31,393 bases of DNA from a virus. Position 1 is the first letter of the stretch. The number at the start of each line of letters is the position of its first letter. Positions 10,435 to 25,671 of this stretch are shown here, in pieces. The stretch covers positions 1 to 31,393 of IMG/VR virus record IMGVR_UViG_3300045999_002100; one strand, 5' to 3'. The translations under genes and the position numbers were made by a program. The notes beneath the pieces are model-generated. The model was not told the origin of the DNA, did not search any database, and saw nothing but the letters and a program-made list of their open reading frames with translations.

Positions 10435-13083
10435 TTATGACCCTCCTGTGTTTACATCCAACATTACTTGCCACTTACCTTTATACGCCATTAATTCAAT
10501 TGTATGATGGTTTTGTAAGGTAAAGCTATTTGAACTATTTATAGTTTGTCCTACTTTGATTGGGTACAATTTAACCGACCCTCCATTGATGTTCTTGATT
10601 CTTATAATGGGCTGAACTCCATCCAATAGTTGTTGGTCTGCATCTGGCAGAATAACATCCTCGCTATCTTCTATAAATGCGACCTCTTCGCTAAAAGGTA
10701 AGAAATGAGTATTGCCGTCATCATAGCCTTGAACGGTTGTCTGTCTTCTTTTCTCGTCTGTAAAGATTAATCCATTGTCCTTAGTTGTGAACATCGGCAT
10801 ATCTTCGTTGTCGATAACTGCACCGCCTCCACCATTGCCACTACCTGATTGAAGGATAAACGGAGGTGCTACTTTTAATTTTAAGAACTCAAGTCTGCAA
10901 GGCTCGTTATTTGTAAGGTCATTTTCAATAGTGTAAAGTCGGTAGAATTGTTTGTCAATTTGATAGAATTTTCTAAAGTCTAAGTTTGCAAATTGATTCT
11001 CTGTCAAGTGAAAATATCCTCCTACTAACTTTGAGTCTTTGTCGGTTATCTCTTCAATGGTCTTGCGCCAGAATCTATTGTACAAATTGCCATTCGTGTA
11101 AGTAGTATTTCCTAATCCGTAATTAATCGCCTTAGGCATTGCCCATCCCAAGTCAAGTTGAGGTGTTGCTAAACTATCAAGCATTCCAGCATAAGGAAAG
11201 TCTACATAGTTATTTAATCCTGCGTTATCTTTTAATGTCCACCCTGTCGAAGTTGCGACTAAACCACCATAGTATAGGATGCGAATATTAAACGAAGGTA
11301 AGTCTGCATCTTGTTTAGGTGGGTCTTCCATTCGAATCTTAGAGTAGATTCTATCGTGTGAACTTGGTGTGTTTGATAAAGGCGTTGCACTAAACCCAAC
11401 TTCAACCTTTTTAGTCTGCGTTAAGAAGTCATTATTAACTTGAACTAATTTAGTCGAGTAAGGCTCTCTAAATAAGTCCTGATACTTCTTGTTGTATTCA
11501 TCATTATCAGACTTGTAAAGCATCTCTAACTTACGGAAGTCGAGTACTCCCATAGGTTTAATAAGCAACTCTCGTGAAGTATCTAAGAAGTTAGTGAGGT
11601 CTACTACATCGTTAGTGTAGAAGGTATCTCTCGGTTCAATTATTAACTTCTTAGGGTCTATCTTATCTGGTACTATGTAAAGATTAAACATCTTAAATAG
11701 ATAGCTTAAGAAGTCTGCTTGCTTTACTTCTTGTGGAAGTGCTGCGTTTATTGATATAGTTTGCCCTTCGTTGTAGGTTGATGAAGGAGAGGAATAAAAT
11801 CCAAACCCGCTTAAAATATCTAGCTCAAAATCAAAGGCATTTCTAGCACCATAACTTCCCCATAATACTTCAACATAAACTTTATCACTTGTTATTACTT
11901 CAAATTCTATTGAACTAAAATTCACGTCTTTTGTTATTCCCGTTCCTGTTGGAGTTGAGTTATAAATAAATTCCGTAACACTAGTTCCGATTGTTGTTAA
12001 TACCCCAGACCTATTACGAATTATTGTAAAGGTTACAAAACAAGATTGCGATAAGGTTAATCCGCTTTCATTATTTAAAGTTATTTGACCTTGTAAACCT
12101 ACTCTATACCTCCCATTATTCCCGCTTGCAATCAATACCCAGTCATTTGCTAAATCTACTCCAGTCGGTGAAGTGTCTTGAGTTATTGTGTCAAAATCAT
12201 ATATAAATGTTTCAGAAACTCTAGGATTAGAACCAGCACCTAAAGTTGTAACTAAATTAATATCTGCACTATTCGTTACTTCCCAAGTTCTATCGTCAAC
12301 TTCTTGCTCGGTCATTATGAACTTGCCGCTCGTGAAAGGAACGATTAACCTCTTGAACTCAATTGAATTAAAGAAGTCTGATTGATACCGGTACCCTTGA
12401 CTTGCAAAGATTGAATCGACTATTTGTTTAACGTAGATTGCAGGGTACATAGCCTTCTCTAAGGTGTATTCTATTTCTTGATTTGCCGTGCTGCTTCCGT
12501 TATCAATAAGTGGGTAAACATATCCCTCGCCTTTTGGATTGCCGCTTACATCAAAGTTTGTGTAGGCGTTGCCGTTTTTTCTAATATCGGTTGCCCAACT
12601 ATTAGAAATCCAAAAGGTAGTCCACGGATGGTCGAATTGGCTAAGGTCTAAGTCGGTCAATAAAGATTCTCCTAAATCTTGAAATAAATTAGCCAATTTG
12701 CCAATGATGATTATCTCGTACTCAATATCTCTATCGTTAATAGGAACTTCAGTAAGTTGCAAGTAACCTCGCATCTGCTCAACTCCGTTATTGAGAATGA
12801 TTGCTTCCGCTTTTAAATTAGCATTAAAGTCTGGAGTGAAGTTAGTTGTGCTTGTATTTATAGTCGCTCGGTTTAGATTATCAATGTCCGAAAAGATGCT
12901 TCTATTCTTAGCCGTTGCAGGGATGCGAATTGAAAGCGAGTAGTCTGACTTTCTTTGTTCGGGTTCTTTAATGTCAACAATCGACTTATTCACAGGCATT
13001 GGAACATTATCGTAAAGGTCAACATCAAATGCGCTAACTACCGCACCGCTTACGTTGTACTGATATATCTTTAGTTCTATCAT
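10435..13083 (-). CDS. Large tail-tip/baseplate-like protein
   Basis: An 882-residue protein. Its N-terminal region (DVDLYDNVPMPVNKSIVDIK, then a SDYSLSIRIPATAKNRSIFS motif at about 46-65) is a hallmark I associate with the large tail proteins of Bacteroidota phages, where a short strand, a TKxFxxPAT-type motif and a KAEAIILNNG-like segment follow one another. A later part (TFYTNDVVDLTNFLDTSREL) and a Gly-rich linker (SGSGNGGGGAV, about 760) separate modules, and the C-terminal 120 residues look like a small beta domain. It likely forms the tail tip that contacts the host. Function is inferred from position between the Dit-like gene and the tape measure gene. Confidence 0.65.
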   Translation of the reverse strand: MIELKIYQYNVSGAVVSAFDVDLYDNVPMPVNKSIVDIKEPEQRKSDYSLSIRIPATAKNRSIFSDIDNLNRATINTSTTNFTPDFNANLKAEAIILNNGVEQMRGYLQLTEVPINDRDIEYEIIIIGKLANLFQDLGESLLTDLDLSQFDHPWTTFWISNSWATDIRKNGNAYTNFDVSGNPKGEGYVYPLIDNGSSTANQEIEYTLEKAMYPAIYVKQIVDSIFASQGYRYQSDFFNSIEFKRLIVPFTSGKFIMTEQEVDDRTWEVTNSADINLVTTLGAGSNPRVSETFIYDFDTITQDTSPTGVDLANDWVLIASGNNGRYRVGLQGQITLNNESGLTLSQSCFVTFTIIRNRSGVLTTIGTSVTEFIYNSTPTGTGITKDVNFSSIEFEVITSDKVYVEVLWGSYGARNAFDFELDILSGFGFYSSPSSTYNEGQTISINAALPQEVKQADFLSYLFKMFNLYIVPDKIDPKKLIIEPRDTFYTNDVVDLTNFLDTSRELLIKPMGVLDFRKLEMLYKSDNDEYNKKYQDLFREPYSTKLVQVNNDFLTQTKKVEVGFSATPLSNTPSSHDRIYSKIRMEDPPKQDADLPSFNIRILYYGGLVATSTGWTLKDNAGLNNYVDFPYAGMLDSLATPQLDLGWAMPKAINYGLGNTTYTNGNLYNRFWRKTIEEITDKDSKLVGGYFHLTENQFANLDFRKFYQIDKQFYRLYTIENDLTNNEPCRLEFLKLKVAPPFILQSGSGNGGGGAVIDNEDMPMFTTKDNGLIFTDEKRRQTTVQGYDDGNTHFLPFSEEVAFIEDSEDVILPDADQQLLDGVQPIIRIKNINGGSVKLYPIKVGQTINSSNSFTLQNHHTIELMAYKGKWQVMLDVNTGGS

Positions 13084-17473: not shown

Positions 17474-18523
17474 TTACTTTAATAGGTTTTTATAAACTTC
17501 GGTTCTTTTAATGTTCAACTTCTCGATGTTCCAATTGTCTTTTACTTCATTGTAGAGATTAGTAGATAGTTCGGTTCTTAGTTCCTCATTATTAATAAGT
17601 TTCTTCATCGCCTTGTACCAATCCTTCTTGTCTACAAATATACAATTTTTGTTATTTAGTCCTATATTTTCGTAAACAGGGTTTTGACTTACGATAACTG
17701 CCAAACCTTTTGCCCCCATTTCTAACATCTTGAGGTTTGATTTACAAATGTTAAATTCGGTATGTCTTAAAGGAATTAGACCGATGTCCATAGCATCGTA
17801 AGCACTTGCATAGGTGTTTACATCCATTGCGTTTATTCTTGCGTATTGGTTTACGTCTATCTTCCAATTTGAGGTAAATACTTTTTCGTAATAGCCCCAA
17901 GTCGGGTCTTTTTCCACATACCCCGATAAGATTAATCTGTACTTATCTATTAAGTCTTGGTCGTGATATAGTTCGTAAAATGGAGTATCTAATAACTCAA
18001 CGTCTTGTTTGTGGGTTATTGAGCCACTCCAACCTATGTGAACCATATCTGCGGATTTTAACTCCCTTACCTTTTCGTCAACTTTAAATTGAGGTTGTTC
18101 AAAGTCTATTCCGTTAGGTAACACTTCTACTTTTTTGTTAAAGTTCCCGATTATGTTAGCCAAGTAGTCGGTAGTAGTAGTTACTAAGGTAGCTTGTCTT
18201 AGGTTGTAAATGATTTGCTCGGCTCTTCGCCCTCTTTTCCATTCGTTAAACATCGGATGTGAGTGAGGTAGCTGCCAAGTGTCATCTCTATCTATTACTA
18301 CCGGTATGCCGATTCTTTTAAGTTGCTTCCAAAGTAGTTCTTGGTTTCCTAACTTACTGATGACTGAACTTGAAACGATAAGGTCGTAATCGTGGAAGAA
18401 CGAATCTGGCTGATGGTCTATTGAAGGTATGGCGGTTACTTCGTCATATTGTGAATGAGGGATGAGAATTCTGTGATACTCAACCCCTGTTACGTTTTGA
18501 GGACAAACTAAAAGTATTCTCAT
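17474..18523 (-). CDS. Glycosyltransferase, GT-B fold (GT4-like)
   Basis: A 349-residue protein with a two-domain layout. The first half (MRILLVCPQNVTGVEYHRIL) is a Rossmann-like domain with VIDRDDTWQLP and LVTTTTDYLAN, followed by the interdomain VEVLPNGIDFEQ. The second half has HIGWSGSITHKQD and the LKMLEMGAKGLAVIVS segment (about 285-295), the GT4-type nucleotide-sugar binding region, here KMLEMGA with E288 as likely donor ligand. It probably transfers a sugar from a nucleotide donor in the cytoplasm. It follows the DUF5672 gene by a 4-base overlap and precedes the small terminase by three bases, so it is expressed with late genes. Confidence 0.8.
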   Translation of the reverse strand: MRILLVCPQNVTGVEYHRILIPHSQYDEVTAIPSIDHQPDSFFHDYDLIVSSSVISKLGNQELLWKQLKRIGIPVVIDRDDTWQLPHSHPMFNEWKRGRRAEQIIYNLRQATLVTTTTDYLANIIGNFNKKVEVLPNGIDFEQPQFKVDEKVRELKSADMVHIGWSGSITHKQDVELLDTPFYELYHDQDLIDKYRLILSGYVEKDPTWGYYEKVFTSNWKIDVNQYARINAMDVNTYASAYDAMDIGLIPLRHTEFNICKSNLKMLEMGAKGLAVIVSQNPVYENIGLNNKNCIFVDKKDWYKAMKKLINNEELRTELSTNLYNEVKDNWNIEKLNIKRTEVYKNLLK

Positions 18524-19128
18524 TGGAAGTGTTCTGATTTAAAGTGTTTTGCAAACGATTTACTTCTATCCCATTCGATTTCGATAGGGTTTTCAAAGCT
18601 AAATCTCAAAGCGGTTTCTATGTCCGCATAAGTAAATCCTTCCGCCTCTGCTTTTGGTTTTAGGTGCTGACAAATAAAAACATCGCCTGCCATTCCGTTG
18701 TATTCTTGAACCGAAATCCAATCAATAAACCTTTTTGATATAATTGAGCATCCCATATTCCCGACTCTGCCTCCGTTAATTAAGTTCCAATCCTTATTCC
18801 AAACTGCGCCTATGTAATCAAACTTCATAAAGTCATAACTCCACAAGTCAAAGTTTATCGGGTATCCGTCTGTTTCTAAAAACATCACATACTTAGTGCT
18901 GAAGTATTTGCTTAACCCTTTAACTTGAAACCTCATAGCCTCCTCATAAGTTAAAGGGTCAATCTTGTGCCATAACCCTACATAGTTTTGAGGTTCGTAA
19001 GGGGATATTATTCGAATAGGATTGTCAAGGTTAGCACATAAGTAAATAGATAGCCTTCCTGCTATGTCCGCTCTTGCGTGAGAATTATCCCCACTAAAAA
19101 TAATAATCGTTAAGTCTTTTATCGTCAT
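18520..19128 (-). CDS. DUF5672-like glycosyltransferase
   Basis: A 202-residue protein. The pattern KYVMFLETDGYPINFDLWSY (about 79-98), FDYIGAVWNKDW, GGRVGNMGCSIISKRFIDW, GMAGDVFICQ and YADIETALRFSFE matches the DUF5672 family, in which the ETDG element resembles the DxD-type metal and nucleotide-sugar site of GT-A enzymes. The protein is thus a likely cytoplasmic sugar transferase. Four-base overlaps on both sides (19125-19128 and 18520-18523) show it is a member of a tight three-gene glycosyltransferase block. The acceptor is unknown: a virion protein, a host glycan or DNA are all possible. Confidence 0.75.
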   Translation of the reverse strand: MTIKDLTIIIFSGDNSHARADIAGRLSIYLCANLDNPIRIISPYEPQNYVGLWHKIDPLTYEEAMRFQVKGLSKYFSTKYVMFLETDGYPINFDLWSYDFMKFDYIGAVWNKDWNLINGGRVGNMGCSIISKRFIDWISVQEYNGMAGDVFICQHLKPKAEAEGFTYADIETALRFSFENPIEIEWDRSKSFAKHFKSEHFQ

Positions 19129-25286: not shown

Positions 25287-25342
25287 AATATTGGGTTTAG
25301 TTATGGGTTAAAAAAAGCAGGAAAGTACCCATATAACTTTTA

Positions 25343-25376
25343 TGTGTATGCCTACACAACCTGCATAGCAAAAATA
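25343..25376 (-). promoter_or_regulatory. Primase promoter -7 box and hairpin with iteron half-sites
   Basis: Minus-strand TATTTTTG (plus-strand CAAAAATA, 25369-25376) is an exact TAnnTTTG. About ten bases into the leader, TGTGTATGCCTACACA (25343-25358) forms a 6-bp stem and contains the core (TACACA/TGTGTA) of the iterons in inverted pairing. A protein that binds iterons could therefore also repress the primase operon, which is inference. Confidence 0.55.
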
Positions 25377-25423
25377 AATATAAATACAATTAAAAAATAA
25401 ATAGTCAATAACTTGTGAATAAA

Positions 25424-25671
25424 TGATACACATTGAGCCAAATAATACACTTGTGATACACATTTATGACACATTGAAAGTCTGCCAACCCCAGCAAAAT
25501 GGACATTCGATACAGATGATACACATTTTTGCCATTTCCAGACTTTTTTTGAAAAAACATTTGTATAAAATATATTTATAGGATTAAGGTGCATTTCAAT
25601 GTGTCAATGTGTATTATTTCCTTATTTTATTGAGGTTTTCAGTTATTCAATGTGTATTTCAATGTGTATTT
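25424..25671. other. Candidate replication origin: iterons around an AT-rich core
   Basis: The gap 25287-25671 holds no credible gene. Three exact TGATACACATT copies occur on the plus strand (25424-25434, 25454-25464, 25517-25527), with degenerate copies near 25443 and 25469. On the minus strand ATACACATT is present three times (25606-25614, 25649-25657, 25661-25669), with a partial copy at 25598-25604. The arrays face each other around an AT-rich core, TTTGTATAAAATATATTTAT at 25559-25578. TGATACACA differs from the DnaA box TTATNCACA at one base. The adjacent gene encodes a DnaA domain IV protein. Confidence 0.72.

Follow-up and report, generated by a model that had tools for sequence, protein, structure and literature searches.

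When considering the possibility that a virus starts its replication at a cluster of short repeats, a central question is which protein reads them. In the virus record analysed here (G000, 31,393 bases, the whole of which is referred to below as the window; being classed linear, it may be a fragment), repeats that resemble DnaA boxes lie next to a gene for a protein consisting of DnaA domain IV. The original prediction was that this protein binds the repeats, or iterons, and so defines the origin. Here we argue that replication of a Bacteroidota virus very probably begins at this array and that, with a probability of about 0.8, the array is a phage origin paired with the primase-helicase encoded just downstream and read by the C-terminal winged helix of that enzyme.

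The repeat array and its surroundings

In the 31-kb window, the exact word ATACACATT occurs six times, three times on each strand, against 0.44 occurrences expected; all six copies lie inside 25426-25669, none was found elsewhere in the window, and no shuffle of the window reached this number. When one mismatch is tolerated, the window as a whole no longer shows an excess, so that the signal of the array resides in the exact word and its clustering. Word counts and coordinates thus bear out the arrangement read earlier from the letters, namely, three exact copies per strand in facing sets around an AT-rich core (Table 1), and the view of the array as phage-owned and origin-like is supported. 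The core is presumably the melting region; in many relatives, the same place holds a stretch rich in AT and, after it, one that resembles TTTTTTCAAAAAA. The inflection of GC skew that had been expected at the array was not seen at 25.5 kb, and GC skew was dropped as evidence for an origin.

Table 1. Coordinates of the features at and around the repeat array of the window
Feature	Position	Strand	Description
Primase-helicase, 787 aa	22923..25286	-	BT4734-like/AEP primase N-terminus, PriCT-1, SF3/D5 helicase, predicted C-terminal winged helix ~720-778
Structured leader, array to primase-helicase start	25310..25371	-	Terminator-like hairpin GCAGG/CCTGC and T-run, overlapping alternative hairpin TATGGGT/ACCCATA
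Exact DnaA-box consensus TTATTCACA	25414..25422	-	Single; touches array edge; present in L004 too
Iteron set	25424..25527	+	TGATACACATT starting 25424, 25454, 25517; degenerate copies 25445, 25467, 25509; same array in L004
Degenerate iteron ATACACTTG	25445
Degenerate iteron TGACACATTGA	25467	+
Degenerate iteron GATACAGA	25509
AT-rich core	25528..25595	.	~20% GC between arrays; TATAAATATATTTTATACAAATGTTTTTTCAAAAAAA on - strand
Facing iteron set	25596..25669	-	ATACACATT 25606-25614, 25649-25657, 25661-25669; plus TGACACATTGA 25596-25606
Degenerate iteron TCAATGTGTCA	25596		Reads as TGACACATTGA word on -
NinG remnant, ~45 aa	25683..25812	-	N-terminal zinc-finger part; ends at array edge
DnaA-domain-IV-only protein, 139 aa	25787..26206	-	Bac_DnaA_C 3e-15, nothing else; residues 1-49 identical among close relatives

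The leader has counterparts in several clades (L014, L033, L041, L054, L074, L084 and others). Among 14 sequences, seven of the 12 predicted base pairs show changes on both sides, with a small covariation energy term, and an Rfam search with the leader returned no match; judging from its sequence, it is a possible attenuator. Elsewhere in the window (17474-19128), a glycosyltransferase-like gene and a DUF5672 gene adjoin the terminase region.

Likeness of the repeats to DnaA boxes

The repeats had been described as lying one mismatch from the DnaA box TTATNCACA. This holds for the three plus-strand copies and for one minus-strand copy (TAATACACA), but not for the other two minus-strand copies, which read AAATACACA and carry two mismatches. 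There is no enrichment of exact TTATNCACA boxes (three in the window vs 1.55 expected, one of the three being at the array), so that the above-chance cluster of such boxes by which a DnaA-box origin would be recognized was not found. The single TTATTCACA box at the array edge was not seen in the inspected clades other than that of the window and L004. Since the comparisons with relatives described below point to the primase-helicase as the reader, the resemblance between the repeats and host DnaA boxes is probably fortuitous, these iterons being one member of a family of diverging repeats.

The stand-alone domain IV and its distribution

The recognition of the 139-aa protein as a lone DnaA domain IV is confirmed by profile and by fold: it scores 56.4 bits against Bac_DnaA_C (cut-off 31.5), its predicted model matches DnaA domain IV, with structure matches to 1j1v and 3pvp, and the AAA+ domain is absent. 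Equivalents of R399, R407, D433 and H434, which we take to be the main DnaA-box-reading residues of DnaA, are retained in the protein, with serine replacing T435; this conservation makes binding of the window domain IV to DnaA-box-like DNA plausible. Among the close relatives, which were drawn from ten contigs, the gene is a mosaic: in the window and L001-L008, residues 1-49 vary little or not at all, and the DNA-binding part is swapped among at least three alleles. Divergence can be considerable also at otherwise similar loci: L074 and L084 belong to one repeat class and are 97% identical in the primase-helicase, yet their domain IVs are only 44% identical.

Of 50 records of primase-helicase relatives, 32 have a domain IV. 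In seven clades (about half), such a gene is situated upstream of the array, and in several of these it ends right at the array; in others with at least 1.5 kb of upstream sequence, domain IV was not detected, although, as most records are fragments, such absence is weaker evidence than presence. Thus, of the original idea, the recurrent adjacency of domain-IV genes to the module in other phages has held up, whereas the dependence of the repeats on domain IV has not. Domain-IV-only genes, deposited as 'DnaA' or 'replication initiation protein', are also present in the Polaribacter phages P12002L and P12002S (2015) and in ctfjg026 (MW202828.1). In P12002L, NinG and a replication protein of another kind are located near the gene, which does not adjoin this primase-helicase. 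The presence of domain IV beside quite different modules, including those of the published Polaribacter phages, suggests that its role is not tied to these iterons. The complete phage genome MW202828.1 (L305), with a primase-helicase that is 43% identical, carries two separate domain-IV genes (1812-2114 and 10886-11394).

We propose, from these comparisons, that the domain-IV protein is a fast-evolving neighbour of the array that may have a separate or accessory role. A more specific idea, which we regard as doubtful, if worth entertaining, is that a stand-alone, hypervariable domain IV is maintained by Bacteroidota phages as a dedicated partner of phage replication modules, acting at the phage origin or at host DnaA boxes, its DNA-binding part being exchanged as a cassette and diverging far faster than the adjacent initiator.

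The primase-helicase and the arrays of its relatives

The protein encoded on the other side of the array has an AEP-type primase N-terminus (Pfam BT4734-like_N, 5e-20, plus PriCT_1), for which the fold matches are modest (RepB' primase 3h20, E 1e-3; S-2L PrimPol 6zp9, 1e-2). The SF3/D5 motifs NPNGGSGKG, FDD and TTN, as read by eye, are invariant in 38 relatives, and the presence of an SF3 helicase gene alongside the array, also part of the original prediction, is supported; the fold matches of the helicase (D5/E5, AsfvPrimPol) are weak, and the helicase core of the predicted model is of low confidence. A sequence search of the PDB with the primase-helicase returned nothing meaningful. The C-terminus is predicted, with pLDDT of ~84-90, to form a winged helix (H725-735, H739-742, H745-758, E762-768, E771-777), the putative reader of the iterons. 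The locus thus combines the marks of an AEP primase-SF3/D5 replicon: an AEP primase, helicase motifs, a predicted winged helix, and an AT-rich region with an iteron set on either side. An iteron plasmid replicon of the Rep_3 kind and a lambda O-type origin were rejected, as neither the Rep_3 (PF01051) nor the Phage_rep_O (PF04492) initiator profile has a match in the window.

Most of the about 80 primase-helicase relatives examined have repeated words upstream of the gene, mostly ~145-390 bp from its start and sometimes further away, where extra sequence intervenes; an array was not seen at every locus (e.g. L085, L302). The repeats differ between clades, namely, ATACACATT, TGACACATT, GGTACACATT, AGTACACTTT, TAGGTACTTA, GGGCACATT, GCGGCACG and TTGGCGCAAA, and distant relatives in Bacteroidota assemblies have others, such as TGTCCAATTT, arranged at L298 as two sets of four that face each other, and GTTGTCACGG (L301). 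In a scan of viral contigs for ATACACATT pairs, 79 loci were checked, of which only two, both from the L014 clade, encode the primase-helicase and domain IV; most of the others contain just an isolated pair, which tells little.

Association of the repeat class with the two proteins

Pairs of loci of the same repeat class show excess identity chiefly at the primase-helicase C-terminus, with the peak of the sliding window at residues 725-787. With repeat classes assigned by hand, labels permuted without regard to the tree, and relatedness corrected solely by regressing on the remainder of the primase-helicase, residues 700-775 are associated with the repeat class (p = 0.0018, 26 loci); in the same kind of test, the 15 representative loci that have a domain IV gave p = 0.0016 for the primase-helicase C-terminus and p = 0.23 for domain IV. 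On these sequence comparisons, the repeat class appears to track the primase-helicase C-terminus and not domain IV.

A switch of iterons within one clade points the same way. In the L014 clade, the iterons are either of the ATACACATT or of the TGACACATT type, and no fixed domain-IV difference between the two types was found in eight sequences. The sole fixed and checkable differences in the primase-helicase are N767R and S768G (three vs two sequences), at the wing tip of the predicted winged helix; the window, which has ATACACATT, carries N-S at these positions. Residues 728 and 736 were withdrawn as fixed differences because the tail of L020 past a contig-end frameshift carries the residues of the other group. 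There are counter-examples: the wing residues of L021-L024 differ from those of L026, although the repeats are the same; L044 and L060 differ in three tandem copies, the other repeats being largely unchanged, although their C-termini are identical; and GGGCACATT is common to two clades with only ~45% C-terminal identity.

The most direct comparison is with L004, which has a near-identical array and a primase-helicase 100% identical to that of the window, but another domain-IV allele (56% identity in the core). This allele is 100% identical in L001, L002, L003 and L005, where neither ATACACATT nor an array nor a primase-helicase relative was found, several of these records being short fragments. 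Because L004 shares both array and primase-helicase with the window, while its domain-IV allele occurs without either, the array moves with the primase-helicase. The same domain IV thus occurs with and without ATACACATT, and arrays without a detected domain IV exist as well (e.g. L069, L070, L077, L021-L026, L298). Together with the lack of association noted above, this leaves without support the claim that the domain-IV protein defines the iterons: co-occurrence and co-variation of the repeats with its gene were not found, and the kind of observation named in advance as speaking against the claim was made.

The edge of the array likely preserves a trace of how the module arrived. The NinG gene, a remnant in the window, is full length (205 aa) in L003 and L005-L010, and relatives whose contigs reach far enough have the full NinG and, after it, a replication module of another type that includes DUF1376- or Lin1244-like proteins; the remnant likely marks the junction of a module swap. 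In L005, L008 and L009, short repeats such as GGAATTGCA or TGAACAGCA are found within, or close to, genes of the alternative module that are predicted to function in replication, which recalls the in-gene origins of the lambda O type.

Other readings of the array

Could the array be read or used in another way? The domain-IV protein might read the iterons as variant DnaA boxes, recruiting host DnaA or the phage helicase, or might co-bind them as an accessory factor or regulator. We consider this unlikely: the closeness of TGATACACA to TTATNCACA, the retained box-reading residues, and the position of domain-IV genes on the upstream side of the array in seven clades are in its favour, but identical domain IVs come with and without the array, arrays come without a detected domain IV, the iterons can switch while domain IV shows no fixed difference, the repeat class is not associated with domain IV, and the D433 equivalent varies between D, G and N inside one repeat class. 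It is about equally unlikely that the array is not an origin but an operator controlling transcription of the primase-helicase operon. It does lie in the region upstream of that gene, by a TAnnTTTG promoter-like box and the attenuator-like leader, and an origin can double as an operator; however, two facing sets with a very AT-rich core, recurrent in relatives, fit the known rep-ori origins better (PMC6092414), and an autoregulating initiator would satisfy both readings. The idea that the array depends on host DnaA as an origin, or serves as a trap that titrates host DnaA, can draw on the exact box that touches the array and on the iterons that are one base off the consensus; given that exact boxes are not enriched and that the TTGGCGCAAA, TAGGTACTTA and TGTCCAATTT repeats of related arrays do not resemble DnaA boxes, we regard it as highly improbable.

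A probable origin served by the primase-helicase

We therefore favour the reading in which the array is an origin served by the primase-helicase. The array is linked to this gene across relatives, its repeats differ between clades, and the differences are associated with the primase-helicase C-terminus. As an active origin, it would function as follows: the C-terminal winged helix would bind both of the facing iteron sets and probably form two assemblies in doing so; the AT-rich core would melt; the SF3/D5 helicase ring would load itself; and the N-terminal AEP domain would prime.

By analogy, such an origin would be of an ordinary phage kind, similar to those of P4 alpha and of the SaPI-PICI Rep proteins, newly seen here with its family. 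The P4 alpha protein unites primase, SF3 helicase and C-terminal origin-binding parts and acts at repeated short sites (ori/crr). By description, the likeness extends to all of these, namely, a single primase and SF3 helicase protein, a putative C-terminal origin-binding part and repeated short sites, but P4 has two separated sites, whereas here there is one compact array. The C-terminal domains of SaPI Rep and of Cch2 bind iterons (PMC7581432), and in PICI origins an AT-rich region is always flanked by two iteron sets (PMC6092414). The SaPI/PICI pri-rep-ori systems and SCCmec Cch2 are thus alike in the self-loading helicase, in the C-terminal domain that, there, reads short iterons, and, for PICI, in the two iteron sets. 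In contrast, SaPI origins lie just downstream of rep, whereas here the array precedes the primase-helicase gene on its upstream side; the host group here is Bacteroidota, and no sequence-level match to a solved primase-helicase was found. With DnaA-box origins, the locus shares a genuine domain IV in the neighbouring 139-aa protein, but it differs from them in that this protein has no AAA+ domain, TTATNCACA is not enriched and the repeats do not track domain IV.

Taken together, these comparisons offer an origin-initiator pair of Bacteroidota phages that is compact and testable, and the many natural variants of the repeats could show which residues of the primase-helicase choose the origin. 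More generally, a DnaA-like gene beside repeats that resemble DnaA boxes need not be their reader.
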